A stretch of 64,000 nt of DNA, taken from assembly GCF_000337415.1 (NCBI RefSeq), contig NZ_AOJD01000027.1:1-64000 (forward strand), written 5' to 3'. This DNA comes from Halorubrum tebenquichense DSM 14210 (lineage in GTDB: Archaea > Halobacteriota > Halobacteria > Halobacteriales > Haloferacaceae). Each line of letters opens with the position of its first letter. Position 1 is the first letter of the stretch. The notes beneath the pieces were generated by a model that saw only the letters and a list, made by a program, of their open reading frames with translations, was not told the DNA's origin and searched no databases. Made by a program: the position numbers and the translations under genes. Below, one piece after another: positions 18,045 through 45,570 of the stretch.

Positions 18045-18251
18045 ACAATATATGATACGCATACAACATAATCAGATCGACGTACAGCGCGGCAGTCGAC
18101 AGATTCCACGGGGAATCTGTCGATTGCGTTCTCAGGCTGCTATCTCGACCCGACAAATAACCCAGCACTGGCGAGGCAGCCACCGCTCATTGCTGAGCAT
18201 GGTTGTCTGTGTCAATTCACCGACTCGCCGGCTTCGAACGGACACCAACCA

Positions 18252-21326: not shown

Positions 21327-22007
21327 ATGAAAAGAGCAGGAGTAGTCTTGGACTTTCCGTTTCCCGAAGAGCGGGTGTTCCGCTATCAGGCAATGCAGGA
21401 TATCCTCCATCACCTCGTGAACAATCCATTCGAGGAGTTCACACAGCAAGAACTCGCATCGATCACAGGAGCGGATGTCTCGTCGGTTTCCCGTTCAGTC
21501 ACCCTCCTTGAGAAACTCGGTGTGATCGTTGTAAACGACCAACGACCTGCTCAGATCACAGTCGATGCCGATCATCTTCAGCGATCAGATCCCATTTTTT
21601 CGATACCACAGCCGAAGTTCCGGACGCCGATCCAGTCCTATCTTGATGATCTCAGGAACCGAATTCAAGCGAGTGAGGAAATTGACGAGCTCGTCGGGAC
21701 CATTCTTTTCGGGAGTGTCGCTCGTGGAACAGCAGACCGGCGAAGCGACATTGACCTACTTGTCATTGTTGATGGGGATCTCACCTACGGACGGCGCATC
21801 TGTACCTCGCTCGCGCGTGAGGTTGAAGACAAATCATTCGACGGTCATCGATACGAATTTGAAGTTCTCGTTGAAACGCCAGAAACAGCGATCTCACACG
21901 GAGCTGAACTCTCCGACCTCTTTGATGAGGGATTGGTTCTCACCTCTTCTCCCCAGCTACAGGACCTGCGGCAAGACATTTATCGTCGGTCTCAAGCGGG
22001 TGCGTGA
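21327..22007 (+). CDS. HTH-nucleotidyltransferase (MNT-domain) protein
   Basis: 226 residues. The N-terminal winged helix (residues 30-75; FTQQELASITGADVSSVSRS) is fused to a minimal nucleotidyltransferase domain with GSVARGTADRRSDIDLLV: Gly129-Ser130 and the metal-binding Asp141 and Asp143. The DxD pair and GS motif are complete, so catalysis is possible. MNT proteins usually act as antitoxins that AMPylate a HEPN toxin, but no HEPN gene is adjacent. The fused HTH suggests self-regulation. It is followed immediately by a structured RNA-like element and then an AbiE-like pair. Confidence 0.8.
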   Translation: MKRAGVVLDFPFPEERVFRYQAMQDILHHLVNNPFEEFTQQELASITGADVSSVSRSVTLLEKLGVIVVNDQRPAQITVDADHLQRSDPIFSIPQPKFRTPIQSYLDDLRNRIQASEEIDELVGTILFGSVARGTADRRSDIDLLVIVDGDLTYGRRICTSLAREVEDKSFDGHRYEFEVLVETPETAISHGAELSDLFDEGLVLTSSPQLQDLRQDIYRRSQAGA

Positions 22008-22012
22008 GCCGC

Positions 22013-22085
22013 CTCGGGGTCAAGTGGTTCGAGACGCGGAGCGTCTCGTCATCACGGAAATCAAAGATTTTCGGACGACCCCGAG
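22013..22085. ncRNA. Cloverleaf-like inverted-repeat element
   Basis: A 9-bp outer stem CTCGGGGTC (22013-22021)/GACCCCGAG (22077-22085) encloses two hairpins: CGAGACGC/GCGTCTCG with loop GGA (22030-22048), and GGAAATC/GATTTTC with loop AAA (22056-22072). The 73-nt three-way junction starts 6 bp after the stop codon of the preceding gene. It may be a 3' UTR structure, a terminator, a small RNA or a non-autonomous transposon end. Strand is unknown, as it folds on either. Confidence 0.45.
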
Positions 22086-22200
22086 ACACTCGGCCTGCTT
22101 CACTGTAAAGAATACACTCGCGAAACCCGTTACTGGGTAGCTAGTTTGTCAACCTAAATCTAGTAACCCATATATACGATTAGGCTTGTAGTATACATAT

Positions 22201-23151
22201 ATGATTTCAAATGCCGAGCTTGCTGTGATCGACGCACTGAGCACCGGCCGCGAAGCGACACCAGCCGAACTCGCGACAGAGATCGAGTATTCACAGGCAC
22301 ACATCTACGAAGTGCTCGATACGTTACACGCAGCGGGACTCCTCACCGAAGCCCGTGGCCCAAACAACTTGCGTCGCGTCTCCGTCACGGATCATCCGGT
22401 CATCGAAACATATCGTCGGCTACGGGCGAAACTCGGACATATCGAGTGGGCTGACCTCCTTACACCCGCCACCCTTCGAGTGTGCTGGTTTCTCGACGAA
22501 CCACGTCGCGTCACAGACATCGCAAAACGACTGAATATCACTCGGCAGAGCGTCCACAAAGCGCTGTCCCCACTCAAGGATCGAGCGATGCTGTCCCCGT
22601 CCGGTCCCGAGTACGCGGTGAGTGATGATCTCGCGCCACTGCTGTCGTTCACTCAGGCCGTCGTGACCTTCGAACACCGATCGCGGGCACGAGAGATCGC
22701 ACCCAGTGCGACTATCGAATGGTGCGACCCAAAACGAGCACTCATCCGTGTACAGACTTCGGAAGATACAGCGGCGCTGCTTGACGCACCTGATTGGCAG
22801 GTAACTGGACTCGGTCGGTTCGAGGAGTACGGACTACAGTTTTTCCTCGCAGGTGAACCTGCATTCTGGTATACACCCAACGAAGAACTCACGCCTGTCG
22901 ATATCGTGTGTCACACGCTCGTCCTCAATAGTGAATCTCGCCGCATCAGTTATGCGATGTTGTTGATCGACAAGTTGGATATCGACCGAGAGAAACTCAC
23001 AGACACAGCAACGTGGTATGATCTAGAGGCAACAGTCGCTACAATGTGCCAGGCAGTTCAGGGCGAGTTCGACGGTTCACAGGATCCTCCCGTCGTCTTG
23101 CCGAGTGAATCAGAATATATCGCGCTCAAAGAACAATACGGAGTAGTATGA
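22201..23151 (+). CDS. Winged-helix protein, probable AbiEi-like partner
   Basis: 316 residues starting MISNAELAVIDALSTGREAT. Two helix-turn-helix units are visible: residues about 5-60 (TPAELATEIEYSQAHIYEVL) and 95-150 (RVTDIAKRLNITRQSVHKAL). The C-terminal half is an unrecognised alpha/beta domain. Its stop overlaps the next start (ATGA), so it is translated together with the nucleotidyltransferase gene that follows. This HTH-then-nucleotidyltransferase order matches AbiEi/AbiEii-type antitoxin-toxin pairs. If so, the HTH protein would be the antitoxin and repressor, now left without its toxin because the second gene is split. Confidence 0.65.
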   Translation: MISNAELAVIDALSTGREATPAELATEIEYSQAHIYEVLDTLHAAGLLTEARGPNNLRRVSVTDHPVIETYRRLRAKLGHIEWADLLTPATLRVCWFLDEPRRVTDIAKRLNITRQSVHKALSPLKDRAMLSPSGPEYAVSDDLAPLLSFTQAVVTFEHRSRAREIAPSATIEWCDPKRALIRVQTSEDTAALLDAPDWQVTGLGRFEEYGLQFFLAGEPAFWYTPNEELTPVDIVCHTLVLNSESRRISYAMLLIDKLDIDREKLTDTATWYDLEATVATMCQAVQGEFDGSQDPPVVLPSESEYIALKEQYGVV

Positions 23152-23270
23152 CTGTATTCAGTGGCGGCCAGGCGATCAAAGAATTTCTGTCGGAGTTCGA
23201 CAATTGGCTATCGGAGTCTGTGACTGTGTATCTCCTCGGCGGGTCGGCAATGACACGGTGTGAGCGGAAG

Positions 23271-23290
23271 CCCACCCATTCACGGGTGGG
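23271..23290. repeat. Left-end hairpin of the TnpB element
   Basis: CCCACCC (23271-23277) and GGGTGGG (23284-23290) pair across a 6-nt loop, 15 bp inside the left end. Such imperfect hairpins are the TnpA recognition structures of IS200/IS605 elements. Confidence 0.7.
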
Positions 23291-23396
23291 TGTGAGCGGA
23301 CACTCCGACTCAACAATCTACTGTCCTATTGCCCGGTGGTAATTCCCACCGCATCTACAGCCTTTACAATCCAGTAATCCCACACTATTCGCGGTA

Positions 23397-24755
23397 ATGC
23401 GGCGGGTCAACATCTTCCGAGTCAGCCCCCTCTCGGAGAGAGACGAGCTGATCCTCTACGAGGTGTTGGACGCGTCCGCTGCGCTGTGGAACGAACTCAC
23501 CTACCACCGCCGCCAACACTTCTTCAACAATCGAGACGTGTGGAACGTCGACGCCGACGAATACCGTGTGAAGTACAAGGGTGTCCTCGGCTCCGCCACC
23601 GCTCAACAACTCATCCGCAAAAGCGACGAGGCGTGGCGGTCGTTCTTCGCCCTCATGGAAGACGGCGAGAATCCCTCGCCGCCCGGGTACTGGAAGGACG
23701 AGGATAGCGGAGAGCGCACGCTCCAGACGCTCATCCGCAACGATCAATACACCCTCAAGTGGGGCGAGCGATCGCGGCTGGAGATCCCGGTCGGACACGA
23801 CCTCAAGGAGAAGTACGGTCTCGGATACCACGAGCGACTTCGACTCGAAGCACGTGGGAACCCGCGGTGGGAAGGAAGTCAGGGCCGGTTGGAACTGGTG
23901 TACGACAAGGACGCCGAAGCGTTCAGGGCACGACAACCCGTCTCCGAAGCTACTCCTCGACGGGACGAACCACTGGCCGCCGCCGCGGGCGACGACGGGG
24001 TGGTGGCAGCCTTGGACATCGGCGCGAACAACCTCGTCGCCGTCACCACAACCACCGGCTACCAACGTCTCTACCACGCACGCCCCCAATTCCACCGCTT
24101 CCGTCGCACCACCAATCAGATCGCCGCCCTCCAAGAACGCCTCGAGTACGGTACGTGGTCAAGCCGGCACATCCGCCAGATGTATCGGCGGCGCACCGAA
24201 CACGTCCGTCACCTTCAGGACGCCCTCGTCCGCGATCTTGCGGAGTGGTTGGCTGAACACGGTGTTGGCGAGGTGATCGCTGGCGACCTCTCGGACGTGC
24301 TGCAGGAGCACTGGTCGGCGCGGGTGAACGAGAAGACCCACCAGTTTTGGAGTCACGGCCGCTTCCGCCGCCGCTTACAGGAGGTGTTGGAAGGCGAGTA
24401 CAGCATTAGGGTGCGAGAGGTCAGCGAAGTCGGTTCCTCCTCTACGTGTCCGGACTGCGGCAGCGAGAACATACACCGTGAGGGCGACCTGCTCACGTGC
24501 TACGACTGCGGTTTCGAGGGGCATTCGGATTTGGCGGCGTCGGAGAACTTGCTGATAGTGAACGACGGGTCGATGGCTCGGCCCGCGGTCTCCCGAGAGA
24601 ACACGACGGAGAGGGCACACCGATCGGTGGCCCGCCTCGAGTGGAACGATCACCGCTGGCGACGGCGGGATCACTCGACCAAAGCGGAACCCGAAAACCA
24701 GAGTACCCACGGCGACGCGGGGAAATTTGCCTCCGGTGGCGCAGGCATCGCCTGA
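23397..24755 (+). CDS. tnpB: TnpB, RNA-guided nuclease-like protein, possibly lacking one catalytic residue
   Basis: 452 residues. N-terminal wedge-like region, then RuvC-I ALDIGANN (Asp207), the region VGEVIAGDLSDVLQ where RuvC-II would normally supply Glu (here Gly296-Asp297), a four-Cys zinc finger (CPDCGSENI...CYDCG) and RuvC-III GHSDLAASENLL (Asp378). TnpB cuts DNA guided by an omegaRNA from the element's right end. In canonical members the RuvC-II motif reads E-D/N-L, so the Gly here could weaken or abolish cutting unless the neighbouring Asp substitutes. Some haloarchaeal TnpBs may share this GDL form. The C-terminal tail beyond the RuvC core is unusually long and acidic-basic mixed. 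Confidence 0.85.
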   Translation: MRRVNIFRVSPLSERDELILYEVLDASAALWNELTYHRRQHFFNNRDVWNVDADEYRVKYKGVLGSATAQQLIRKSDEAWRSFFALMEDGENPSPPGYWKDEDSGERTLQTLIRNDQYTLKWGERSRLEIPVGHDLKEKYGLGYHERLRLEARGNPRWEGSQGRLELVYDKDAEAFRARQPVSEATPRRDEPLAAAAGDDGVVAALDIGANNLVAVTTTTGYQRLYHARPQFHRFRRTTNQIAALQERLEYGTWSSRHIRQMYRRRTEHVRHLQDALVRDLAEWLAEHGVGEVIAGDLSDVLQEHWSARVNEKTHQFWSHGRFRRRLQEVLEGEYSIRVREVSEVGSSSTCPDCGSENIHREGDLLTCYDCGFEGHSDLAASENLLIVNDGSMARPAVSRENTTERAHRSVARLEWNDHRWRRRDHSTKAEPENQSTHGDAGKFASGGAGIA

Positions 24756-24770
24756 ATCACCCACGCGGAG

Positions 24771-24805
24771 GAATCCCACGGCTGAAGCCGTGGGAGGAAG
24801 TCAAA
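24771..24805 (+). ncRNA. 3' end of the TnpB omegaRNA (reRNA)
   Basis: CCCACGGC (24775-24782), loop TGAA, GCCGTGGG (24787-24794), then AGGAAGTCAA to the element end. By analogy with TnpB systems the RNA comes from the end of tnpB and this hairpin. Bases after 24805, within the nucleotidyltransferase gene, would be the guide. No experimental evidence is available here. Confidence 0.65.
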
Positions 24806-25657
24806 GTACAGGGACTGAGAGACCAAACTGAGGATATCGATCTTACAGTGGGGGTAATCTCTGAATTCGAGCATGTACACCAGACGCTTACGTCGCAGGG
24901 GTTCACGGTCATCGACGAACCAACGGAGTCGTTCGAGGGCGTTAGGAAAACCGTCGAACTGTATCACGAAGAGCGCGGGTTTCGGATCGATCTCTTCGAA
25001 CGGCAGATCGTTGGGAAAGTCTGGATCACCGATCGGATACACGACCGGGCCAAAGAGTTCTGGACTGGGAAGCACGTGACAGTACTCATCCTCTCAGATG
25101 AGGATATGTTCCTGCTCAAAGCGGTCTCTGGCGGTGACGTGGCGAGTGGCCGTCGACGTGATATCGAAGATATGCGGAAATACGCCCAGCGTGGGTTGAA
25201 CTACGAGGTGATTTGGAACGAGATTGATGCACAGCGACCATTTAATACCGGTACGACTGAAGCACGACAAATCCGGGATCGCTCACATCCGCTGTTTGCG
25301 ATCGAAATGGCCGTGAGTTCTCTCTCCGGACTGCCGAACACGTTCACCACCCAGATCGAAGAATTTACGACGGAGTTCGAAGTCGAATATACGATTCTTG
25401 GTGCTCTCGACGCTGATATCAACGACATCGAAGTGATTGGAGAACGAGTCCTCGCAAATGTACAAACTCTGTCGGAGGATCACGCAAGCGCCGTCGACGA
25501 AGCGGTTGACCGACTTATTACGAAACAGGTTATCAAGCGGGACAGGAATATGATTCAGCTCCGGTGAGGAAGCGCTTCAGCCCCGGTTGTTGTTTCCCGT
25601 CTCGTGAATGATTCGGTGGATAGCTTCGACGAACGATTCACGACGGCTCTAGCACCC

Positions 25658-26314
25658 CTACTCCCTAAAATCGTACTCGCTCTCGCGGGCACTGACGTAT
25701 GTCGTGTTGCCCTCTCGATCTGGGACGTAACACGGACCGTCACCGGCCCTGTAGAATACGGGTGCCTCGATGTCGAGGCTGGTTTTCCGATGGAGCAAGA
25801 GCGGTAGTCGGTCGCGCAACTCCCGAATGGGCGGTTCCCGCCGCGCGTAGAGTGTGCCGCGTGGTGGTCGGCGTTTCGTTAACGGTCGGAGACGATCTTT
25901 CCAGAGATCCGGTTCTGTGAGAATCCGGACATCGAGTTGTTGGGCCAACTTCCACGCGCCCGCGGTCACGTGCCGGGCGATAGCGAGGACAGGCATCGCT
26001 CTCGCGAGGGCGGCCCGGAGGGCGATCGCTTCGACGGCGTCACGCTGGACGGGTGTGGTGTGCCAGTCTTTACACTCGACGACGAGGAAGTCCGTGGGGT
26101 CACCGCGGAATTCGTCGCGGCGCGCGATGACATCGGTTTCGAGCCCGAAGAGCTGCTCGTTGCGGGCTGTGGTGTACCCCCACTCCTCAAGGGTGTCAGC
26201 GACTTCCTCTTCGAACCAGCGCCCGTTGGTTGGATCGTGATCTGGATCGGTCGTCTCGTCAGGCGTGCCGACGGTGTCAATCGCATCAGTCAGGTCGCGA
26301 GTGTCGTCACTCAT
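25658..26314 (-). CDS. Restriction-endonuclease-like (Mrr/PD-(D/E)xK) protein
   Basis: 218 residues from the ATG at 26314. The N-terminal 110 residues carry a PD-(D/E)xK nuclease site: helix NGRWFEEEVADTLEEWGY with Glu36, then LETDVIARR with Asp61, then DFLVVECKDWH with Glu80-x-Lys82. The helix Glu plus D/E-x-K set matches Mrr-like or Holliday-junction-resolvase-like nucleases. The C-terminal half (TLYARREPPIRELRD...) is unassigned. The start overlaps the preceding 81-residue gene by 8 bp. It is the last gene of a six-gene overlapping operon. Whether it acts as a defence nuclease or processes element DNA cannot be told. Confidence 0.75.
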   Translation of the reverse strand: MSDDTRDLTDAIDTVGTPDETTDPDHDPTNGRWFEEEVADTLEEWGYTTARNEQLFGLETDVIARRDEFRGDPTDFLVVECKDWHTTPVQRDAVEAIALRAALARAMPVLAIARHVTAGAWKLAQQLDVRILTEPDLWKDRLRPLTKRRPPRGTLYARREPPIRELRDRLPLLLHRKTSLDIEAPVFYRAGDGPCYVPDREGNTTYVSARESEYDFRE

Positions 26315-26552
26315 CGGCTTGCTCCTCCACGATGGCGGCTGCTTCGGCTTGGACGGCCGCTTCTTCGAGGGCAGTGGCGATCGTTTTGGCTTCTGCTGGG
26401 GACAGCACCGCGTAGATGACGTCACGGTCGTCACCGAAGCTGAGCGTCACCCGTGTGTCGTCATCAACCGTATCGATTTGGATGCTGCCGAGCATCTCCG
26501 GCGGGCGGTCGCGTCTGATGACCGTCTCCAGATCGAGTGCGGGCTCGTTCAT
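26307..26552 (-). CDS. Small acidic protein of unknown function
   Basis: 81 residues (MNEPALDLETVIRRDRPPEM). An alternating strand pattern (SIQIDTVDDDTRVTLSFGDD) is followed by an Ala/Glu-rich helix (AEAKTIATALEEAAVQAEAA). It overlaps the upstream 952-residue gene by 4 bp and the downstream nuclease gene by 8 bp. The coupling suggests a partner or inhibitor of the nuclease, but this is inference. Confidence 0.65.
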   Translation of the reverse strand: MNEPALDLETVIRRDRPPEMLGSIQIDTVDDDTRVTLSFGDDRDVIYAVLSPAEAKTIATALEEAAVQAEAAAIVEEQADE

Positions 26553-29407
26553 TGCTGGGTCCCTCCATTAGGGTGGGTCGGTTGCGGCGTTGCGGCTACT
26601 GTCGTTGGGGTGGTTGGTGGTGTCATTATGTCGGGTTGTGGATGCGATTGATCGTGGCTGTGCGGCTGTCGGCTGTCGGTAGGCATGAGTATCGGACACA
26701 TGGTGTCGTGAGCGGTGTCGATGGGGACGGTGGCGATTGATATTGGCGGGCGTCTGTCCCAGCCAGCGCGAGAGCGCCACCACGTGTGGGCTGGGCCCAG
26801 AATGGACGGCCTCGTGGAGGTAGGTGACTGTCGGTGCGTCGACGACGAGGTCGCGGGCTGGTCGCTATGGTACGGAAGCCACGCTGTCACCGGTGGTATC
26901 CGCTGATCCAGTGAAACTGACTCCATCGTCGTCCACCGACGGTGGCCGTCGATCTGGACGGCGTGAACGCGGTCGAGAGCTTGGACGTCTTCCAGCCGAC
27001 GGTCATAGCTGCTCGCGGAGATGTCGGCCTGCTCGATCAGCGCGGTCCGACCGAGCGAGCCGTCGGCTTGGAGTAGGGTGGCGTACAGCTTGGTCGCTGT
27101 CGGCGTGAGCTTCGGGCGGAAGCGTGTTGCCGGCAGGGTGGCTGCCGCGCGTTCAACGTCGGCCGGTGTCGGTGTTTGTGCTTCGGAGAGCGCCCACAGG
27201 AGACTCACGACGACGTCGTACGGACACGCCCGGCGGGTGGTCTCCGATGGGCCGAATGAGCGGAGACAGAGCCGGACGAGTCGCTGTTTCTCACGGGGCG
27301 ACCACTGGGTGTTGTGGGCTGTCGCGATCTCGTCGATCACCCGTCGGATGGCGGGGTAGGTGGTGCCGTCGACGACGGGGATCTCGAGGGTGGGTGCAGC
27401 TTCGGTCCCGTCGGCGACCGCGTCTCGGACGGTAGCGAGTTCCTCGCGAAGGGCCGTGGTGATCTCATCGTGGAGCGCCGTGGCCGTTGGGCCGGCAATG
27501 ACCCACGACATCGTGAGATCTAGCTGTGCGTCGGGCTCGACTTCGTAGGGGAGTCGCCGGCACAACTTTGTAGGTCGGTCTTCGAACAGCAGTCGATACC
27601 CCGAGTGGATCCCGTAGGTGGACTGTTTGGGGACCGTCTTGGCGAGAAACTTACAGAGGTTCTGGAGGCGGGTGGTGGAGCGTGCGAGAGTAGCCGTGTC
27701 CGGAACCCGCAGTGTGGTCGTGAGATCGATTCCGGCTGCGTGATACAGCTGGGTGGCCGACGCGATGAGCCCGTGGAGATCTTTGAAGAGCTCGCTGCGG
27801 GCAGCGGTGTCGTTATTCTCTGTGAGTTCAGCCACTCGGGACAGCAGGCGATCCCGAACGGTCGTGATTCGCTCGCGCCACGCCTCGTAGGTAGTCTCGG
27901 CGTCGCTACACCAGCCAACTTGGCGGCCACGACGCAGCAGGCGACCGACTGCGTACTCGTGGGTGTCTTCGTCGAGTGCCTCGAACTTGTGGCCCAGTCG
28001 TTCCGGGGTGAGGATCTGCGAGAGTGCCTTCTCGCTGAGTAAGGCTCCTGCGAGACGTCCCAGGGTAGCTACGGGCCCGCCCCACTGGAGGACGACGAGC
28101 GTCTCTGTCTCGGTGTGGCTGAGGTACGCAACGCGGCCGTCCTCGAGGGTCGCGGGCTGGTCACCGACGAGGGTGATGGCGTCGTCGTGGGCAACCGTGG
28201 CGAATCGGTCGTGGAGTCGGCTGGCCGGAGTACTGTTGGGGCCGGTGAGCCACTGAACGTAGTCGGCAGCCGTGTCCGGAGTGCCGGTCGCCGCGACCCA
28301 CTCGTCTGGCGGTGTCGCCTCCGGGCCCCCCGGCCGCCGGGGCGACACTGTACTTGTAGCGTAGTGAGGGGTTGGAGTAAGTCGCTCGTCGAGCCGGCGC
28401 TGATCCGGGTGGATGAGCTCGTAATCGTCATCGAGACACGCTCTGGTAGCCCGCTGGCCCAGATCGGTGAGCTGGACCGTGTGCTGCGTTCCGCGACGAT
28501 TAACGGTGACCAGCCCGCGCGTTTCGAGATCGAGAACGTACCGACTGACGGTTCCGGCTGCGATATCGATTGCGTCGTCGGCGCTGAGGTCGTCGTACCG
28601 GCGGGCGTGCGTTGTCGTGAGATTCCCGAGGAGTCGGCGTTTGCCCGGTTCGGTATCGAGATCGCGGACGACGTCCCAGGCGGCCTCGGGAGTCTGTTCG
28701 CGGTGGGTGGTGTGGGGAGACCGATCCCGGCTCCCAGTAAGACCGAGATGGTACTCCGTCCAGTTGGGATACCGCCTCGACAGGTGACGGTGGAGTGCGG
28801 GCGAGACGACGACGCGAACGTCGAACCCGGCGGCAAGCACGGCGATCGCCGCGAGTGCGCGGACTCCCGTCCGGCGGTCGTCTACCTCGGTCCACGCCTC
28901 GCCGTCCAATTGGAGAATGAGGACGGTGGGCTGAGCGTCGAGTTCGCGATGGAGCGCGACCGGGCCTTTTGCGAGCGCGCCGAGGCTGGCGTTCACTGGG
29001 CCGCGGCCCGTGCCGATCGCGGTAACGGTCTCGGAGAGGTTCGCGTGGCGCTGGTGATGGTACGCCGACAGGGGCTCAGTGTCCGTATCGTAGGTGAGCG
29101 CACGCGCGGTGATCGCGCGGACGTACGCGACGGCTTCGGCGACGTCGTCGGTCCACGTGTTGTCTGTGTTCGACCACTCCGGGTGGAGGCGGGTGAGAAA
29201 TTGTGAACTCGCCCGCCATCGATCCTCGGTAGTGGTGGTGTCGCGGATGGCGCGTTCGGTGTGCGGTGTGAGCTTCTCGAGGAGGTCTGGAAGCCACTCG
29301 GTTAGGCGAGGTGACACCGCGGGACAGCGAATACCGTCGGTGGGAACGCCTGTGGGGCTGACGAGCCGAACCCCTCGGCTAGGGGTCGCGGGTTGGCGTG
29401 ACTGCAT
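26549..29407 (-). CDS. 952-residue protein with winged helices, unknown function
   Basis: Large protein, the core of the overlapping operon. Residues about 160-205 form an alpha/beta segment (TVLILQLDGEAW, FDVRVVVSPAL). Residues 255-322 form a winged helix ending VTVNRRGTQHTVQLTDLGQR. A second DNA-binding-like helix cluster lies near the C-terminus (TATKLYATLLQADGSLGRTA, then SASSYDRRLEDVQ). The last 130 residues are low-complexity, rich in Thr, Pro and His, and may be disordered. No Walker A, nuclease or polymerase motif is seen. Similar large genes are common on haloarchaeal plasmids and integrated elements (from memory), so it may control or replicate such an element. Confidence 0.65.
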   Translation of the reverse strand: MQSRQPATPSRGVRLVSPTGVPTDGIRCPAVSPRLTEWLPDLLEKLTPHTERAIRDTTTTEDRWRASSQFLTRLHPEWSNTDNTWTDDVAEAVAYVRAITARALTYDTDTEPLSAYHHQRHANLSETVTAIGTGRGPVNASLGALAKGPVALHRELDAQPTVLILQLDGEAWTEVDDRRTGVRALAAIAVLAAGFDVRVVVSPALHRHLSRRYPNWTEYHLGLTGSRDRSPHTTHREQTPEAAWDVVRDLDTEPGKRRLLGNLTTTHARRYDDLSADDAIDIAAGTVSRYVLDLETRGLVTVNRRGTQHTVQLTDLGQRATRACLDDDYELIHPDQRRLDERLTPTPHYATSTVSPRRPGGPEATPPDEWVAATGTPDTAADYVQWLTGPNSTPASRLHDRFATVAHDDAITLVGDQPATLEDGRVAYLSHTETETLVVLQWGGPVATLGRLAGALLSEKALSQILTPERLGHKFEALDEDTHEYAVGRLLRRGRQVGWCSDAETTYEAWRERITTVRDRLLSRVAELTENNDTAARSELFKDLHGLIASATQLYHAAGIDLTTTLRVPDTATLARSTTRLQNLCKFLAKTVPKQSTYGIHSGYRLLFEDRPTKLCRRLPYEVEPDAQLDLTMSWVIAGPTATALHDEITTALREELATVRDAVADGTEAAPTLEIPVVDGTTYPAIRRVIDEIATAHNTQWSPREKQRLVRLCLRSFGPSETTRRACPYDVVVSLLWALSEAQTPTPADVERAAATLPATRFRPKLTPTATKLYATLLQADGSLGRTALIEQADISASSYDRRLEDVQALDRVHAVQIDGHRRWTTMESVSLDQRIPPVTAWLPYHSDQPATSSSTHRQSPTSTRPSILGPAHTWWRSRAGWDRRPPISIATVPIDTAHDTMCPILMPTDSRQPHSHDQSHPQPDIMTPPTTPTTVAATPQPTHPNGGTQQ

Positions 29408-29439
29408 TAGTGATCACCAGGAGGTGGGGGTCTGGTGGA

Positions 29440-29910
29440 TCACTGTGGTCCCTCGTGGGATGCGCCACCATCAGAGCGAGCCCGTTCGCGAACGGCGTCG
29501 AGTAGTGAGGGTGGCTCCTCCGATGGTGAGTGGATTGGATCCCGTGGGGTTGGCGCGTCCGCGTGGACGTGTGGGGTTGTACTCGTCGTCGGGCTCGTGA
29601 CGACGGCGGTCGGATCCAGCAGGACGACCGTCGTCGATTGGATCTGGGTGTTCGTACACGTCCCAACGTGACCCGTGAGGACGTACTCGCGAACACCACG
29701 GGTGAAGACGGTCGGGTGTTCGTGGGCATCCGACCCGCACATGATGTAGCCGATCGCGTACGCGGACTCGCCCGCAGCCCGGTAGGCGTAGGCGGTGATG
29801 TCGTCGCCCTCGTTGAGGGTGCGGCCACAGACTTGGCAGGCGGGGTGGGTATCCAGCGGGATGCGCGCGAGTTGCTGGCGATCTGGGAGTTCGTCGGTGG
29901 ATCGGGTCAT
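29440..29910 (-). CDS. Zinc-ribbon protein of unknown function
   Basis: 156 residues from the ATG at 29910 (MTRSTDELPDRQ). CQVCGRTLNEGDDITAYAYR is a treble-clef-like half, with later Cys in GYIMCGSDAHEH and HVGTCTNTQ giving further ligands. The C-terminal 50 residues are Pro/Thr-rich and probably disordered. It overlaps the next upstream gene by 4 bp (ATGA). A DNA- or RNA-binding accessory role is likely, but no family is recognised. Confidence 0.7.
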   Translation of the reverse strand: MTRSTDELPDRQQLARIPLDTHPACQVCGRTLNEGDDITAYAYRAAGESAYAIGYIMCGSDAHEHPTVFTRGVREYVLTGHVGTCTNTQIQSTTVVLLDPTAVVTSPTTSTTPHVHADAPTPRDPIHSPSEEPPSLLDAVRERARSDGGASHEGPQ

Positions 29911-30224
29911 TCGTTCCCTCCCTCGCTGGTGGTGATGCCAGCTTGCCACGCTTGGCGGGCGGAGAGTGCGCGTCGGGCAGATTCTGTGAGTTGGTACCCT
30001 TTTGAGTCGGCGGCGGTGACGAAGTCGCGTTCAATGAGTCCTTCGAGTGCGTCGCAGACCTGGTTGTGGTTGATACTCTCGGTGTAGTAGTCGGAGAGTG
30101 CTTGGTGGAGTTGGTTACTCTCACAGGGATCCGTCTGTGCGAGTATCCAGAGCAGGTCGCGGTGGACGGCTGAGAGATCGGCGACCGGGTGGGTTGTGTC
30201 GCTCTCGGTGTGGGAGCTACTCAT
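29907..30224 (-). CDS. Winged-helix DNA-binding protein
   Basis: 105 residues from the ATG at 30224 (MSSSHTESDTTHPVADLSAV). A helix-turn-helix is visible at about 25-80: LSAVHRDLLWILAQTD, then ESNQLHQALSDYYTESINHN, followed by a wing (KGYQLTESARRAL). The fold matches small PadR/ArsR-like regulators. It overlaps both neighbours by 4-8 bp. As part of the operon it could regulate the cassette. Confidence 0.75.
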   Translation of the reverse strand: MSSSHTESDTTHPVADLSAVHRDLLWILAQTDPCESNQLHQALSDYYTESINHNQVCDALEGLIERDFVTAADSKGYQLTESARRALSARQAWQAGITTSEGGNE

Positions 30225-30402
30225 TATGTCCCTCCGCGGTATTATTGCTACTGCTGTGTGTCCTCGCACACGTTGTACAGATCGGGGCATCTAGGGTAGC
30301 GTCATACCCGTCGGCCTCGGTAGTACAGAGAGTACAGGTGGTACTGTTCGATCCGCCAGTCGTCTCGCAGGGCTTAAGCCCCGCAGTTGCCAGCATTAGC
30401 AT
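30217..30402 (-). CDS. Small double-CxxC protein
   Basis: 61 residues from the ATG at 30402; a GTG 18 bp upstream is an alternative start. CTLCTTEADG and APICTTCART give two CxxC pairs separated by 15 residues, a small zinc ribbon. It is the first gene of the leftward operon, facing the repressor-like gene to its right, and overlaps the following gene by 8 bp. Confidence 0.7.
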   Translation of the reverse strand: MLMLATAGLKPCETTGGSNSTTCTLCTTEADGYDATLDAPICTTCARTHSSSNNTAEGHNE

Positions 30403-30429
30403 GGTTCTGTGATCGGGCACAGAACCCGT

Positions 30430-30460
30430 CCCGGCTGGGTGCTACAACACCGCAGCCGGG
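30430..30460. repeat. Hairpin upstream of the leftward operon
   Basis: CCCGGCTG (30430-30437) pairs with CAGCCGGG (30453-30460), continued inward by GGTG/CACC with one bulged base and a 6-nt loop. It lies 28-58 bp upstream of the ATG at 30402 and could be part of an mRNA leader or an operator. Confidence 0.45.
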
Positions 30461-30537
30461 GTTTCTACGCTTTCTCACGAGCCGAGGGTTCGTCGCTGGG
30501 CTCTGTGAGTCCCAATAATATCGCTTGTAACTTATAG

Positions 30538-30588
30538 GTTCGGATAGTGTCTAACATAAATGGAAGTTCTAGACTACACTATCCGAAC
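30538..30588. promoter_or_regulatory. 13-bp inverted repeat, candidate operator
   Basis: GTTCGGATAGTGT (30538-30550) and ACACTATCCGAAC (30576-30588) are perfect inverted repeats with a 25-bp AT-rich centre. They lie between the divergent operon and the repressor-like gene, ending 32 bp before its ATG. The placement fits autoregulation plus control of the leftward operon. Confidence 0.6.
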
Positions 30589-30620
30589 TCATTACACACA
30601 TCACGATAGAAGTGGTAACT

Positions 30621-30917
30621 ATGCTGCGGCACTCTGGAAATTGGATGACGTTGGTTGATGATCGAATTTTAGAATATCTTCATGAGAATGAGGCTGCATC
30701 ACCCACAGAGATGATGAAAGGTGGTCCAATCAAATTTAGTCGAGCATATATCGGTAGGCGATGTAAAAAACTGAAAGAAGAGGGTTTACTCCGCGAAATT
30801 AGCGATGCAACGTATGTGATTACAGAAGATGGTGAAGCATATCTTAAAGGCTATCTAGATACTGAGGATTGGCAGTATATTGACGAAGGAAGCCACATGG
30901 ATAGCGATCATAATTAG
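30621..30917 (+). CDS. PhiH1-repressor-like winged-helix protein
   Basis: 98 residues from the ATG at 30621 (MLRHSGNWMTLVDDRILEYL). The pattern matches haloarchaeal phiH1 repressor-like regulators: HSGNWMT, an HTH with SPTEMMKGGPIKFSRAYIGR, a helix KKLKEEGLL and a wing ATYVITEDGEAYLKG. In virus phiH1 the repressor maintains lysogeny. Here it faces a six-gene operon across a perfect 13-bp inverted repeat, which suggests a similar switch for an integrated element. The GC content is lower than in the backbone, a sign of transfer. Confidence 0.8.
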   Translation: MLRHSGNWMTLVDDRILEYLHENEAASPTEMMKGGPIKFSRAYIGRRCKKLKEEGLLREISDATYVITEDGEAYLKGYLDTEDWQYIDEGSHMDSDHN

Positions 30918-31281: not shown

Positions 31282-32061
31282 CTACGAGTCGACGACAGCC
31301 TCGCTCGCGTCCGCTTCCTCCGTTTCCTCCTCTTCGCTCACGGCGTCGGCGAGTTCATCGAGTCGCTCCTCGGCTCGATCTCGGTCTTCGGGGTACCCGA
31401 CATCGATGCGCCAGCCGTCCAGCCGGATCGCGTCGATCGTGCGGCCGGACTGGATGAGGAGATCGATCGCGTCGGGAAGCTCGTACTCGCCGCGGTCGGA
31501 GGGCTGGACGAGGTGACACGCGTGGAAGATGGCGGGCGTGAACGTGTAGAAGCCGGTCATTACGAGGTTGCTCGGCGGATCGTCGGGCTTCTCGACGACC
31601 TCGACGACCTCGCCGTACTCGTTGGTGTCCAAGACACCGTACCGGGAGGCCTCCTCGTAGGGGACCTCTTCGACGAGGAACGCGGCGTCGGCGCGCTCCT
31701 CCTGCTGACGGCTTGCGACGTCGCCGAGGTTCCCGCGGAACACGTTGTCGCCGAGCATCAGCATGAACGGGCCGTCGATGTGGGGTTCCGCCTGAAGGAT
31801 GGCGTGAGCGAGACCGAGCTGTTCGCGCTGGTGGGCGTAGGTGATTGGGACGCCCTCGTACTCGTCGCCGTAGCGATCGATGATCTGCTCGGCCTTGTAG
31901 CCGACGACGACGACGAGTTCGGTCGCGCCCGCGTCGATCAGGTTGTCGAAGACGTCCTGAATGAGCGGCGTGCCGTTCACTTCGACGAGGACCTTCGGTT
32001 TGTCGTCGGTGAGCGGTCGGAGTCGCGTGCCCTTGCCAGCGGCGAGTACGACTGCTTGCAT
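31282..32061 (-). CDS. aglF: Glucose-1-phosphate nucleotidyltransferase (AglF type)
   Basis: 259 residues. The N-terminal nucleotide-binding loop reads VVLAAGKGTRLRPLTDDKPK, and LGDNVF, FLVEEVP, GWRIDVGYPED and related RmlA/GalU motifs follow in order. In H. volcanii AglF makes UDP-glucose for N-glycosylation. Whether UTP or dTTP is used here cannot be read from sequence. The C-terminal 20 residues are a Glu-rich tail. The gene marks the start of the backbone agl locus and is at the left edge of a glycan cassette of lower GC. Confidence 0.8.
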   Translation of the reverse strand: MQAVVLAAGKGTRLRPLTDDKPKVLVEVNGTPLIQDVFDNLIDAGATELVVVVGYKAEQIIDRYGDEYEGVPITYAHQREQLGLAHAILQAEPHIDGPFMLMLGDNVFRGNLGDVASRQQEERADAAFLVEEVPYEEASRYGVLDTNEYGEVVEVVEKPDDPPSNLVMTGFYTFTPAIFHACHLVQPSDRGEYELPDAIDLLIQSGRTIDAIRLDGWRIDVGYPEDRDRAEERLDELADAVSEEEETEEADASEAVVDS

Positions 32062-32204
32062 GAGTAGGCGGTGTTTGCGGGGTGGGAAATACTTTGTCGT
32101 CAGCGATCCGGATCTGAGAGTCGGAGAGTATCACCAATCGCTGTGATCGCCGGTTAGGTACTCTCGGTAGTCCGGGTCTGTGAACGTGAACGTCGCGAAG
32201 AAGG

Positions 32205-33101
32205 CTAACTCGTGGGCGCGGGGATGTCGTCGCGCTCCTCGCCGAAGAGGAACTCGTAGTAGTAGCCGAGGCCTCGACAGGTGAGCATCGCGAACGAGAG
32301 GAACGCGAACGCGAGTCGCGTGGCGAGAGACAGTTCGTCGCCTTCCTCGTCGTCGTTGCCCGATCCGCTCGGTCGCGGCGGGATTCCTGGGGTGCCGTAG
32401 CGTTCCGGGTAGTACCGTTGCTTCTGGCAGAAGCCGCGACCGACGCGGAAGTTCTTCTTCGCGAGCGATTCGAACCGCGTGCGTGCGGGATGGTAGACGA
32501 CTGCGTCCTCGGCGTAGCCTTGGTCGTAGCCCGCCTCGTGGACGCGCTCCCCGAACTCGCGGTCGCCGCCGGAGATGAGTCGGGCGTCGAAGAAACCGAC
32601 CTCCTCGAAGACTTCGCGACGGACGAGGAGGGCGCAGGTAGGGGCGTAATTCTCGTTTTCGAGGTACTGTTTTACCGGGAATCCGGTATGTGCGTTGTAT
32701 CTGCCGACGAGCGTGTCTTCCGGGAGTGTAAGTTCGACGTTACAGCCGAGGTAGTCGACACCCTGTTCGTCCATTGTTGCGAGAGCGGTTTCGAGCCAGT
32801 CACTGTCAACGGTTTCGTCGGCGTCGAGGAACGCGAGTACGTCGCCGTCAGCGTGTTGGAGACCCGTGTTTCGGGCGGCGTAGGAGCCTTGTATTTGTCT
32901 CTCACAATAGGATCTGATACGAGGATTGTTCGCTGTAAACGATTGGATTATCTCTGAAGTGTCGTCAGTAGACGCGTTGTCTACTACAACTACTTCACTA
33001 ATACTATCTTGCCGGAGAATATGATCAAGTGTATTGTTTATTCCCTCTGAATCATTGTAAACGGGGATGATTATTGTAAACTTCGGTTGAATATCACTCA
33101 T
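32205..33101 (-). CDS. Family 2 glycosyltransferase with C-terminal membrane segment
   Basis: 298 residues from the ATG at 33101. GT-A fold: TIIIPVYNDSEG, VVVDNASTDDT, then GDVLAFLDADETVDSDWLET (DxD-like metal site), and an acceptor region GGDREFGERVHEAGYD. A hydrophobic segment near the end (LATRLAFAFLSFAMLTCR) anchors it to the membrane, as in AglE-like enzymes. It is similar to the other family 2 enzyme at 37.7-38.5 kb, so the two may be paralogues that add different sugars. Donor and acceptor are unknown. Confidence 0.85.
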   Translation of the reverse strand: MSDIQPKFTIIIPVYNDSEGINNTLDHILRQDSISEVVVVDNASTDDTSEIIQSFTANNPRIRSYCERQIQGSYAARNTGLQHADGDVLAFLDADETVDSDWLETALATMDEQGVDYLGCNVELTLPEDTLVGRYNAHTGFPVKQYLENENYAPTCALLVRREVFEEVGFFDARLISGGDREFGERVHEAGYDQGYAEDAVVYHPARTRFESLAKKNFRVGRGFCQKQRYYPERYGTPGIPPRPSGSGNDDEEGDELSLATRLAFAFLSFAMLTCRGLGYYYEFLFGEERDDIPAPTS

Positions 33102-33111
33102 AAAATACAAT

Positions 33112-34326
33112 TCAGGTATTGTTCTTTAATAAGCCGTAGTCAGCATATTTTTGAGTTATACTTTGACAAAAGGTCTCCCATGTAGGCACAGCAGATTTAT
33201 TCGGCTTGTGTTCTGAGTTATCCAGTAAAGATTCAAATTTCTGACTCCACTGTGAAACATCAGGGGGCACAACAGACACTCCTGGTTCTCCTTCAACAAT
33301 TTCTCGAACCATAGTATCTGTCGATATTGCCACTCTTGCGCCAGCAACGTACGCTTCTAGTGGAACAAGACCGTATGCGACCCAAGCAGGATGGGCCAGT
33401 AAATCAGCCGCTACATAATACTCTGGTAGATCTTTTTCAGGAATATACCCCGCGAAAACAACAGAGCTCTCAATACCGACTTTTGAGACGAGTGACTTCA
33501 GTTTGTCTTCCTCCTTACCAGACCCACCAATGACCAATGTAACATCTTCTCGACCAGTCCGTCTACAGAACTCGGCAAATGATTTAATTAGTAATGTGTT
33601 TCTTTTTCTTCGATCCAGTCGACCCACATTCAAAATCATATGATCCGTATTGATATTTGGGAGTTCTCTTGGTTCAATATCAACACTAATCTTGAACCAG
33701 TCTTGACTGACGCCAGGTCTGACAACCTCTGGGTCAATTTCGTAACAAAACGATAGTTCAGATGCGACTCTGTCTGTGAGGGTTGTAACGATTTCACTCT
33801 CCTGTAGAGCCTCTTGACGGAGTCGTTCACGACACTCGTAGTATAACCGTTCTATAGGGGTGCTGTGGTAGTCCTGAAACGTAGCATGACCATCAATAGA
33901 CGAGATCTGTTGCTGATACCCTTCTTTTCGGGTATGTGGTTGTAATTTTGGATTATCGTCGAACCAGAAGGGTGATCCATTCACATGGCATGCGTAATTA
34001 ATATCTGTGCCTCGAGTAGCAAGATATACCTCAATGTCTTTGTAGTGAGAAATAACGAAGTCTAAACCATCCTTCAGAATTTGCGATCGGATATCACGAA
34101 CTTGTTTTAGTCGGTCTGTCTTTGGAACGTTTAATACCCTACCGCTATTGGGTATTTCTTGTATAGCTATATTATTTACTCCGACAGATTCACGAAAGTT
34201 TGGATAGTCCTTTTCAGGGTATATACGAACGGTATGGCCCCTTTCTCTGAGATCGCGGGCCTGTTCAAGAATTAAGCGTTCTGCACCACCAGGAGAGAGT
34301 GAAAGAGTAACCAATCCAATTTTCAT
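33112..34326 (-). CDS. Family 4-type glycosyltransferase (GT-B)
   Basis: 404 residues from the ATG at 34326 (MKIGLVTLSLSPGGAERLIL). The GT-B fold is shown by the N-terminal SLSPGGAER loop, the hinge MILNVGRLDRRKRNTLLIKS, IGGSGKEEDKLKSL, VVFAGYIPEKDLPEYYVAADLLAHP and the nucleotide-binding end GLVPLEAYVAGARVAIS (the expected E-x7-E is partly replaced). GC content is clearly lower than in the flanks, a sign of acquisition. It probably adds a sugar to the dolichol-linked or surface glycan. The specificity is unknown. Confidence 0.85.
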   Translation of the reverse strand: MKIGLVTLSLSPGGAERLILEQARDLRERGHTVRIYPEKDYPNFRESVGVNNIAIQEIPNSGRVLNVPKTDRLKQVRDIRSQILKDGLDFVISHYKDIEVYLATRGTDINYACHVNGSPFWFDDNPKLQPHTRKEGYQQQISSIDGHATFQDYHSTPIERLYYECRERLRQEALQESEIVTTLTDRVASELSFCYEIDPEVVRPGVSQDWFKISVDIEPRELPNINTDHMILNVGRLDRRKRNTLLIKSFAEFCRRTGREDVTLVIGGSGKEEDKLKSLVSKVGIESSVVFAGYIPEKDLPEYYVAADLLAHPAWVAYGLVPLEAYVAGARVAISTDTMVREIVEGEPGVSVVPPDVSQWSQKFESLLDNSEHKPNKSAVPTWETFCQSITQKYADYGLLKNNT

Positions 34327-34404
34327 TAGTTGCGATAAGATGTTCACCCAATAAGTAATTTCTTGAATTACACCAGATAGTGGTAGTGAAAAATATAATA
34401 GTAC

Positions 34405-35664
34405 TTATATATTTTCTTCAATTAGTTTGTCGATTGTTTCCCAAATATACTCTAACTTTTCTTCGGTCATTCTGTGGTGATTTCCCACAAATAGTCCATT
34501 CTCATGGATATGCTCAGAGTGCTCAAGATCTCCCTCTACTCGATGCGGAATCGAGTCGAATACTGGTTGCCTCGCCATGTTACCGGCGAGTATCGGCCTA
34601 GTCTCAATGTTATGTTCCTTAAGGTGAGACTGAAGCTCATCTCTCGATATCGGAGCGTCTTCTCGAAGGAGCAACGGATAGGCGAACCACGAACATTCGC
34701 CTTTCGGATGCTCCTCAAGGAGAGAGAATATTTCCGAATACTTTAATAGCTTTTCGTTTAGGTACTCCGCGTTCGATTTCCGTTTCTCAAGGAAACCATC
34801 GATCCGATCTAGTTGGTGAATTCCAAACCCACCCTGAATCTCGGTTGGACGAAGATTGTATCCTGTGCTCGCGAAAAGGAATCGTTCATCAATTTCCGGG
34901 TTTGACTCGACAAACTCAGAGTTGTCGTCCACTTCGCGAACCCAGCCATGGGCTCTAGACATCCGAAGTTTCTCAAGATAATCATCAGAATCAGTCACAA
35001 TCATTCCTCCCTCAATAGTTGAGATGTGATGGGAGAAAAAGAAACTGAACGTACCCATATCGCCGAAGCTTCCCACGTGATCTCCATCGTATCTCGCGCC
35101 GTGAGCCTCACAACAGTCCTCTATGAGAGCGAGGTCGTGTCTCTCACATAACTCAACTAATGCGTCCATATCACAAGGATTCCCGAGAAGATGTACTGGC
35201 AGGATGGCCGCTGTGTCCTCGGTAATTGCCTCTTCAGCGGCATCAATATCGATTGTATACGTACTAGAATCGACGTCCACCAGAACCGGCGTTGCACCGA
35301 CATCTAATATCGGAAAGACACTTGTAGACCACGATACAGCAGGAACGATTACTTCATCCCCCGGTTCGATGGCAGTCCCCTCTAGTGCTTTTAGTGCCAG
35401 CAGGTTTGCTGAGGACCCCGAATTCACCATCACTCCATGGTCTGATCCAGTGTACTCACTCCATCCAGATTCGAATTGCTGGACTTTATCTCCCATAGTA
35501 ACCCAAGTAGAGAGAAGTGATTCCAGCGATTCCATCACTTCGGCAGTCCCGTACGTGGGTCTGCTGAGCCGAATCTTTGACTCTCCGGGTATGAATGTCT
35601 CTTCTTCCTCAAAATGCTGTTCAACTTTTGGCTCGATCTCTGTTAGTATCTCGTCGACGTCCAT
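34405..35664 (-). CDS. DegT/DnrJ-fold sugar 3-dehydratase, His in place of PLP lysine
   Basis: 419 residues. The aminotransferase-fold landmarks are present (VNSGSSANLLALKAL, DEVIVPAVSWSTSV, IEDCCEAHGARYDG), but the site that normally holds the PLP-binding Lys reads FSFFFSHHISTIEGGMIV, with His212-His213. A His there is the hallmark of the ColD/E1 subfamily, which removes the 3-OH of 4-keto-6-deoxyhexoses (for example GDP-4-keto-6-deoxymannose 3-dehydratase) instead of transaminating. Its neighbours are a GDP-mannose 4,6-dehydratase and an epimerase/reductase, so a 3,6-dideoxyhexose such as colitose or a relative is the expected product. Its start overlaps the stop of the epimerase gene by one base. 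Confidence 0.8.
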   Translation of the reverse strand: MDVDEILTEIEPKVEQHFEEEETFIPGESKIRLSRPTYGTAEVMESLESLLSTWVTMGDKVQQFESGWSEYTGSDHGVMVNSGSSANLLALKALEGTAIEPGDEVIVPAVSWSTSVFPILDVGATPVLVDVDSSTYTIDIDAAEEAITEDTAAILPVHLLGNPCDMDALVELCERHDLALIEDCCEAHGARYDGDHVGSFGDMGTFSFFFSHHISTIEGGMIVTDSDDYLEKLRMSRAHGWVREVDDNSEFVESNPEIDERFLFASTGYNLRPTEIQGGFGIHQLDRIDGFLEKRKSNAEYLNEKLLKYSEIFSLLEEHPKGECSWFAYPLLLREDAPISRDELQSHLKEHNIETRPILAGNMARQPVFDSIPHRVEGDLEHSEHIHENGLFVGNHHRMTEEKLEYIWETIDKLIEENI

Positions 35665-36575
35665 TATGCTCTAATTCCCCGTATTGTGTCTACAATTCCG
35701 GCTTCCAAGTCGTATTTTGGACTCCAACCGAGATCGCGAATACGACTGTTGTCCGAAACCATCCGACTGATCTCTACTTCTCGACTTCTTCCCGTTCCCT
35801 CTGAGATCACTTTCAATTCAGTCTTATCCAGTTCTTTCAAAATAGTTTCGACAACTTCCCCCACAGAGTGTTCCTGACCACTACCAACATTGTAGATCTC
35901 GTACTTTGGCTCCTCTTGAGTTGTCAGCATCTCAACAGCCCTTACTAAGTCAGAGACATGTATAAAGTCACGAGTAGGTTCCATGTTTCCAAGTTGGATT
36001 CGATCCTTCGTTTGAGCTTGTCTGATAACAGTCGGTATTAGATTCTGTTCCGTCTGTCCCGGACCGTACACTGTGAATGCGCGTATAATCGTTGTTTCAA
36101 TACCGTATGCGGCTCCGTATCCCTGTACCAAGTTTTCACCAGCAGCCTTTGTAGCAGCGTACGGATGTGTCGGCTGAATAGGGTGTTCTTCACTAATCGG
36201 TAACCTATCTGGTTCTCCATAAATAGACGCACTACTCAGATAGACGAAGTGATCCACATCGTCAATTCGGCATTGCTCTAGTACATTTTGTGTCCCTGTT
36301 GTATTCACAGAGAAGGTCTGCTGTGGATTCCTGATCGACCCGCTAACTGAGACGACACCCGCAAGATGAAATACCGCATCAAACTGTTCAAAAGATGGAA
36401 GAGTATTTCTAAATGTCACGTCCCCGAAGATAGACTGGACATCACTTGAGAAGTGTTCTGTAGCGTCACGCTCTCGCGCGAGTACAGTAACTCGGCGATT
36501 ATTGGTGTTCAACTCTCTGACCAAGTGGCTCCCGATGAAACCAGTGCCACCGGTGATCAGTACATTCTCACTCAT
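35664..36575 (-). CDS. NAD-dependent epimerase/reductase of the SDR family
   Basis: 303 residues. Rossmann loop GGTGFIGSHL, Ser in YLSSASIYGE, and catalytic Tyr-x3-Lys in HPYAATKAAGEN. Extended-SDR motifs (RDFIHVSDLV, YNVGSG) follow. It lies between the GDP-mannose 4,6-dehydratase (8-bp overlap) and the 3-dehydratase (1-bp overlap), so it most likely acts on the 4-keto sugar produced by them: reduction at C4 with or without epimerisation, like ColC, Rmd or Fcl. The sequence alone does not separate these. Confidence 0.82.
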   Translation of the reverse strand: MSENVLITGGTGFIGSHLVRELNTNNRRVTVLARERDATEHFSSDVQSIFGDVTFRNTLPSFEQFDAVFHLAGVVSVSGSIRNPQQTFSVNTTGTQNVLEQCRIDDVDHFVYLSSASIYGEPDRLPISEEHPIQPTHPYAATKAAGENLVQGYGAAYGIETTIIRAFTVYGPGQTEQNLIPTVIRQAQTKDRIQLGNMEPTRDFIHVSDLVRAVEMLTTQEEPKYEIYNVGSGQEHSVGEVVETILKELDKTELKVISEGTGRSREVEISRMVSDNSRIRDLGWSPKYDLEAGIVDTIRGIRA

Positions 36576-37557
36576 TGGGCTGAGCTGCCTGTGAATTATC
36601 CGACTGTAGTTCCGCTAAATCGGTTTCGACCATCTCTACAATGAGATCCTCAAAAGTCTTCTGGGGTTCCCAGTCCAGTTCAGATTTGGCATTTGAAATG
36701 TCCGCCTTCAGTACGTCAACTTCCGCTGGCCGGAAGAACTTTTCATTAATTTCAACGTAGTCCTCCCAGTCTAATCCAACTTCGTTGAAGGCGATTCGAG
36801 CGCAATCTCGTACAGAATGATGTTCCCCAGTTCCAATTACGAGATCTTTGGGGGTATCTTGCTGTAACATCAGGTGCATGGCCTTGACGTAGTCTTCAGC
36901 GTGTCCCCAATCACGTTTCGCATCTAAATTACCGAGCTCAAGTTTGTCCTGAAGCCCGAGAGAGATCGCTGCTGCCCCCCGCGTTATTTTACGAGTTACA
37001 AAATTCTTTCCGCGTCGAGGCGATTCGTGATTAAATAGAACTCCGTTAACCGTGAACATGTCATGGGCTTCCCGATAATTGACCGTTGACCAGTATGCGT
37101 AGAGTTTTGACGTTCCGTAAGGGCTACGCGGCTGGAATGGCGTGTCGATTGATTGTGTTTCCTCAGAGGAATTCCCGAACAGTTCGCTGGTAGATGCTTG
37201 GTAAAACTTCGCGTCTGGCTGGTGTTTTCGAACAGCCTCTAGAACTCGTGTTGCGCCCAGTCCAGTTATATTACCGGTGTGAACCGGCTGATTGAAACTC
37301 TCCGGTACGAAAGAGAGAGCCGCAAGATTATAGACTTCATCCGGTCGAGTCTCTCGAACTACTCTATCCAGAGACGACTGATCCGCAAGATCCCCTTGAA
37401 CTAGTTCTAAGTCTGTAATATGATCTATACGACGGTGTCCTTGAGTGCTTTTCCACCTTTCTAACCCATACACATCGTAGCCTTTTGATAGTAGATATTC
37501 GGCTAGGTAGCTTCCATCTTGACCAGTAACGCCCGTTATTAGTGCGGTGTTGGACAT
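36568..37557 (-). CDS. gmd: GDP-mannose 4,6-dehydratase
   Basis: 329 residues from the ATG at 37557. NADP loop GVTGQDGSYLAEYLL, a Thr-Ser-Glu stretch in YQASTSELFGNSSEETQ, catalytic Tyr-x3-Lys in SPYGTSKLYAYW, and NHESPRRGKNFVTRKI, a typical GMD signature. Its sequence closely follows the GMD family along its whole length. It converts GDP-mannose to GDP-4-keto-6-deoxymannose, the first committed step to deoxy sugars such as fucose, rhamnose, perosamine or colitose. Context (next two genes) points to the dideoxy branch. Confidence 0.92.
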   Translation of the reverse strand: MSNTALITGVTGQDGSYLAEYLLSKGYDVYGLERWKSTQGHRRIDHITDLELVQGDLADQSSLDRVVRETRPDEVYNLAALSFVPESFNQPVHTGNITGLGATRVLEAVRKHQPDAKFYQASTSELFGNSSEETQSIDTPFQPRSPYGTSKLYAYWSTVNYREAHDMFTVNGVLFNHESPRRGKNFVTRKITRGAAAISLGLQDKLELGNLDAKRDWGHAEDYVKAMHLMLQQDTPKDLVIGTGEHHSVRDCARIAFNEVGLDWEDYVEINEKFFRPAEVDVLKADISNAKSELDWEPQKTFEDLIVEMVETDLAELQSDNSQAAQPNE

Positions 37558-37666
37558 CACTTTAGTAAGACTCCGCCAATATAACAAACCTTTCCATTAG
37601 GTGTTCGCGTAACAAATTGCTTACTTTATTATCATACCGATGGGCTAGTGAGCATATAATTTCAAA

Positions 37667-38539: not shown

Positions 38540-38737
38540 CAACTCATCGTGAATTTTAGTATTTCCAAGTTGGTGCTATTGAGACAAATCAATTTGTTTA
38601 TTTTCATCATAATTTTTGATCTTTGAACCGACTTTCAATACTCGCTGAATCTACCTATTATATCCGTTTTGGCACTTCTGAGAATATACTTTTTCACTTG
38701 TACCGTTTAAAATGCCATATTGTAAGACTGCTATTCT

Positions 38738-39772: not shown

Positions 39773-39860
39773 TATACCACCATAAGGGCAACAATTCGCT
39801 TAAAACGATTGGTTTTTATTGAGGTGCTGATAACGAGATGATGTTAGAAAATTTGCTACC

Positions 39861-41483: not shown

Positions 41484-41516
41484 TACTGATAGTTAGTGTT
41501 GTATTAATAGGTTCTA

Positions 41517-42517: not shown

Positions 42518-42526
42518 TAGGTTCTA

Positions 42527-45472: not shown

Positions 45473-45570
45473 TGAACCCGCGTTTTCCGCCCGGATCAAT
45501 AAGGATTCTGAACCCGTCGTCGGGCGGTATATAACAAGCCTTATGGAGGTTTTGGTGTTCACCACGTACA

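Follow-up and report, generated by a model that had tools for sequence, protein, structure and literature searches.

A probable RepH-type replication and control core with an exchangeable repressor–operator unit in Halorubrum tebenquichense

Within a 64,000-nucleotide stretch of DNA from Halorubrum tebenquichense DSM 14210 (the window), positions 25,658 to 30,917 quite probably form the core for replication and control of a plasmid-like element of the RepH type, wherein an operon would be repressed by RepR and controlled through its leader, and wherein the repressor–operator unit would be exchangeable. RepH modules and phiH-type repressors are already known and, to our knowledge, the control and compatibility of haloarchaeal plasmid replication are little understood. 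The segment carries six co-directional leftward genes facing a divergent phiH-repressor-like gene, repR, and all of these open reading frames were recovered where the first-pass annotation of this DNA had placed them. The features are as follows, where "head" denotes repR with its operator and folded leader.

25658..26314, minus strand: nuclease with an Mrr catalytic domain (PF04471, E 2.8e-7; invariant D101, E120, and K122)
26307..26552, minus strand: 81-aa protein (alignment; accompanies repH and mrr at about 16 loci)
26549..29407, minus strand: repH, plasmid replication protein RepH, 952 residues (tblastn, phiH/phiCh1 RepH, phrog_17376)
29440..29910, minus strand: ZR2, zinc-binding protein with invariant C38, C41, C71, and H76 (alignment)
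29907..30224, minus strand: WH, winged-helix protein (phrog_4278, E 4e-12; alignment)
30217..30402, minus strand: ZR1, small CxxC-CxxC zinc-ribbon protein (open reading frame; beside repR in most heads)
30367..30508, minus strand: conserved structured leader, hairpins 1–4 (folding z-score, covariation, covariance model matches)
30531..30537, minus strand: putative operon TATA box CTATAAG, abutting the operator (sequence; kept across heads)
30538..30550, no strand assigned: probable operator half-site adjoining the operon TATA box (perfect inverted repeat; core GTTCGGATA/ATCCGAAC)
30576..30588, no strand assigned: probable operator half-site on the repR side (perfect inverted repeat; conserved core and span)
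30612..30917, plus strand: repR, phiH-type winged-helix repressor (profile match, phiH/phiCh1 RepR similarity, phrog_2440)

Three gene starts were revised from alignments of homologues. That of mrr is probably Met41 of the listed open reading frame (26314), that of ZR1 is probably the ATG at 30402 rather than the GTG at 30420, and that of repR is probably the ATG at 30621. Once the starts are corrected, the previously described arrangement of 4–8 bp overlaps with a single 32-bp gap holds: the overlaps are 8 bp for ZR1/WH (30224/30217), 4 bp for WH/ZR2 (29910/29907), 4 bp for RepH/81-aa (26552/26549), and 8 bp for 81-aa/Mrr (26314/26307), and the gap separates ZR2 from RepH (29440/29407).

On the basis of its homologues, the 952-residue protein was assigned as RepH, known as the replication protein both of haloarchaeal plasmids of the pNRC100 type and of phages phiH and phiCh1. 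In tblastn searches, its similarity to plasmid RepH proteins spans 85–94% of its length, with 47% identity over 86% of the protein for pNRC100 RepH and about 60% identity for Halorubrum plasmid RepH. It also matches the RepH proteins of phiH and phiCh1, with which it shares only ~25% identity across half its length, and belongs to the phrog_17376 replication protein family (E 3e-33). The operon had initially seemed impossible to link to a named system; because the large gene encodes RepH, the locus can be linked to a known type of replication/immunity module. A structure model of RepH was generated by AlphaFold with 31 sequences, but was of poor quality (pLDDT 59.5) and lent the replication mechanism no support at the fold level; in Foldseek searches, this model matched nothing but winged-helix proteins and the ChaoS9 plasmid replication protein.

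Because of the RepH and RepR identities and the layout seen in phiH and phiCh1, we interpret the locus as a RepH replication and control module. The phiH L-region can replicate as a plasmid of 12 kb and confers immunity (PMC6210493). In the L-region of phiH and phiCh1 (pPhiHL), repR is likewise divergent from the early operon or transcripts, and small open reading frames and then repH lie downstream in that direction. However, the window adds ZR1, ZR2, the 81-aa gene, and mrr relative to this region, no parA, imm, or pcnA was seen in the window, and blastn found no match to its leader in phage records. The pNRC100 locus has the RepH homologue in common with the window, but no tblastn match to repR, ZR1, WH, or ZR2 was found beside its repH. 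Kin of the whole module reside on the circular plasmids pHrrPV6, the Fb21 megaplasmid, and pHAR01, which all have the order repR, leader, (ZR1)-WH-ZR2-repH in common, but which lack mrr and the 81-aa gene and carry other RepR types; in pHrrPV6, RdfA comes after RepH. The pleolipovirus HHPV4 has a PhiH1-like repressor near an integrase gene, and several Halorubrum heads of the same kind as the window's face tyrosine integrases, although the gene order of HHPV4 is different and the integrase-bearing elements are without RepH.

RepR matches PDB entry 3b73 ("PhiH1 repressor-like") in a profile search (E 4e-37), falls in phrog_2440, and is similar to the RepR proteins of phiH (33%, E 1e-8) and phiCh1 (31%, E 9e-11). 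The 13-bp inverted repeat noted earlier between the operon and the repressor gene is indeed perfect, with arms at 30538–30550 and 30576–30588 that are 25 bp apart, and the exact arm has no other copy in the 3.3-Mb genome. The repeat is not due to chance, because its spacing and core are kept in two other species. The core GTTCGGATA/ATCCGAAC, with a constant 51-bp outer span, is found only beside type-1 RepR: a search of 170 genomes for the window's operator pattern gave three sites, all of them adjoining a near-identical type-1 RepR, compared with none for the reversed control. An almost identical operator, GTCCGGATAG / CATCCGAAC, accompanies a fourth type-1 repressor (G111, 82%).

Across 49 loci, the operator sequence tracks the sequence of the RepR recognition helix, and grouping the 49 heads by this helix separates their operator sequences cleanly. 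Among RepR pairs of 60–90% identity, the mean operator score is 68 for the same helix versus 21 for different helices (permutation P 0.0002), where the helix groups were taken from the same data as the test and related loci are not independent. The inverted repeat is therefore very probably RepR's operator, and the adjoining putative operon TATA box is conserved across heads. Co-resident heads tend not to be of the same RepR type (2 of 23 pairs, against an expectation of 4.9), a trend that is not significant (P 0.09).

The window is a mosaic in which the operon matches one relative and the repressor and operator match others. From ~30507 leftwards, the operon is 85–95% identical to G143, whereas repR and the operator are only ~50–57% identical to this relative over most of their length. 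Relative to Hrr. aquaticum (G109), by contrast, the repR/operator segment is 79–92% identical and the operon ~63–83%. The same segment is about 71–87% identical to that of Hrr. coriense (G112), whose operon is more distant. Similarity to the closest relative (G143:C3) extends to near the mrr stop codon at one end, and at the other it is lost across repR.

Searching haloarchaeal genomes and plasmids for syntenic cassettes, as the first-pass annotation had suggested, revealed repR with ZR1-WH-ZR2-repH in about 25 of 46 loci, mainly in Halorubrum; the 81-residue gene and mrr are also present in about 16 of the 46. Homologous genes occurring singly without the repressor had been named as evidence against such a switch, but nearly all intact cassettes keep repR. 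Repressor heads without repH, facing an integrase, do exist. Many heads are not upstream of repH, and ZR1 is conserved beside repR in most. Of 15 such loci that were examined, 12 have a related integrase-like gene ~0.8–1.5 kb downstream of the head, and Pfam backs the assignment in 8 of 10 proteins tested, the type being tyrosine integrase. The same recognition-helix groups occur in RepH elements and integrase elements. No relative was found by single-sequence and alignment scans of viral contigs (IMG/VR) or by a single-sequence scan of genome contigs. The window's own genome has a second RepR/leader head (G000:C17:5406-5899, L198), which is of another recognition-helix type and faces an integrase-like gene.

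The leader comprises ~140 nt, with hairpins 1–3 upstream of the ZR1 start and hairpin 4 within the first ZR1 codons. Its conservation begins near the expected transcription start and continues past the ZR1 start, and the folding z-score of the window's copy is −5.6. Among 37 copies, standard pairs make up 97.3% of pair cells versus at most 47% when the structure is slid, and there are 23 double-change cells versus 7.3 in shuffles. Helix 2 has undergone about 12 independent double changes, hairpin 4 varies in a paired manner wherein the sense strand keeps pairing through G.U, G-C, and A-U alternatives, and the sequence of hairpin 3 is almost invariant. Of 170 family genomes, 41 contain a match to a covariance model of the leader, almost always next to a RepR gene, and weaker matches occur in two genomes from another family of the order. 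No Rfam family matches the leader above threshold.

Note that tree-mapped single changes in helices 2 and 3 (window 30400–30508) comprise 15 A.C versus 1 G.U on the sense strand. This bias is absent from unpaired leader columns, and such A.C changes correspond to wobble pairing on the opposite strand; in helices 1 and 4, it is the sense strand that is favoured. The bias is not accounted for by a simple sense-RNA model, and may reflect an antisense RNA or a role at the DNA level. The sequence GGGCTTAAGCCC in ZR1 was considered as an antisense-RNA TATA box and dropped, since the loop sequence differs at some loci that retain the hairpin, and a sigma-70 promoter scan was set aside as not relevant to archaea. 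The A.C changes, and the near-invariance of hairpin 3, which resembles a palindromic protein site, would fit a leader that functions as DNA, with binding sites for the WH or ZR proteins, rather than as RNA. We consider this unlikely, though not negligibly so, given the double changes of helix 2, the sense-strand pairing alternatives of helix 4, and the onset of conservation at the expected transcription start.

Control of the operon would probably proceed as follows. RepR, the product of the divergent gene, would bind the inverted repeat that abuts the operon TATA box and is located upstream of repR, and would thereby shut off the ZR1-WH-ZR2-repH-81aa-mrr operon and probably its own gene. Such repression would limit initiation, and so could serve copy control, and would give the cell immunity to elements with the same operator. 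On derepression, a transcript would start about 26 bp past the TATA box, its four-hairpin leader around the ZR1 start codon would add control at the RNA level, and RepH would then initiate replication. The WH and zinc-ribbon proteins would probably assist or regulate replication initiation, and intermediates of replication or recombination may be processed by the Mrr-type nuclease; for ZR1, WH, ZR2, the 81-residue protein, and the nuclease, roles can only be guessed from their domains and position. Recombination within the conserved leader region would swap the repressor–operator unit between elements and change immunity specificity.

We more tentatively propose that RepR, its operator, and the folded leader together make up a portable head common to RepH plasmids and integrase elements of Halorubrum, that helix/operator pairs define immunity groups irrespective of element type, and that the leader is a new RNA family adding a layer of RNA control to replication. 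If so, an incoming integrative element could be repressed by a resident plasmid. The dozens of natural repressor–operator pairs may yield a recognition code, and make cross-immunity between plasmids and integrating elements directly testable. No earlier description of matched exchangeable heads common to integrase elements, or of the leader RNA, was found in the literature covered, to which most subscription journals did not belong.

The module can be placed as the core of a plasmid-like element that is integrated in a low-GC island on a Halorubrum-type chromosome. Because the contig is chromosome-like, this copy may have lost self-replication, and the segment could be a relic, namely a dead integrated plasmid core of no present function. 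Its position among GC-rich chromosomal genes beside an N-glycosylation cluster would suit a relic, as would the broken state of some relatives (internal stops, truncated RepH). However, all six open reading frames and repR are intact, Mrr retains its catalytic residues, the operator is still a perfect repeat, and repressor and operator are still matched, which makes this reading doubtful. The locus had originally been proposed to be a lysis–lysogeny or defence switch of virus or plasmid type. The phiH-type repressor facing an operon across a repeat that resembles an operator, and the plasmid or virus flavour of that proposal, stand. The gene order equals that of the phiH/phiCh1 L-region, and pleolipoviruses and BJ1 have RepR-like repressors, as would be expected if this were a provirus lysis–lysogeny region using RepH as in phiH. 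Nevertheless, that origin is improbable: Pfam searches of 20 larger open reading frames of the island detected no virion structural or packaging gene, close full-length RepH relatives are on plasmids, no IMG/VR contig was found, and the ParA and PCNA of phiH were not seen nearby. The defence part of the proposal fared worse. PADLOC models run against the core genes gave no significant system, only weak partial HTH or nuclease matches. The Mrr_cat domain and the variable, exchangeable cassettes downstream of mrr in relatives could be taken to indicate an anti-phage operon built around the nuclease, but the central gene encodes a replication protein and plasmids lacking mrr carry the operon too, and we regard such a function as slightly more improbable still.

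The Mrr protein contains the Mrr_cat PD-(D/E)XK domain with its catalytic residues, and Pfam detected no Mrr_N DNA-recognition domain in it. Several relatives (G144:C49, L158; G115:C146, L043; G107:C26, L164; G131:C12, L163; G099:C3, L160; G143:C3, L161) carry multiple same-strand truncated mrr copies downstream of the full gene, nearly all of which retain the C-terminal end; the window has no such fragment. Cassettes common to several species often start directly after the mrr stop codon. The 3′ end of mrr thus looks like a site of serial insertion or recombination.

No convincing attachment repeats were found around the island. In at least two further species (Hrr. persicum and Hrr. salipaludis), the module adjoins the same nucleotidyltransferase gene as in the window. 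Two large open reading frames of the low-GC island (726 and 781 aa; window 15864–20597) have no Pfam match. The module lies inside or beside an N-glycosylation locus (window 5676–7082 and 31282–48738) that encodes a UDP-sugar dehydrogenase, glycosyltransferases, and aglB. In window 21327–25567, an HTH–nucleotidyltransferase and HVO_2833-type gene pair is 92–95% identical to G143, and an IS605-type TnpB gene (23397–24755) overlaps a nucleotidyltransferase-like open reading frame (24497–25567).
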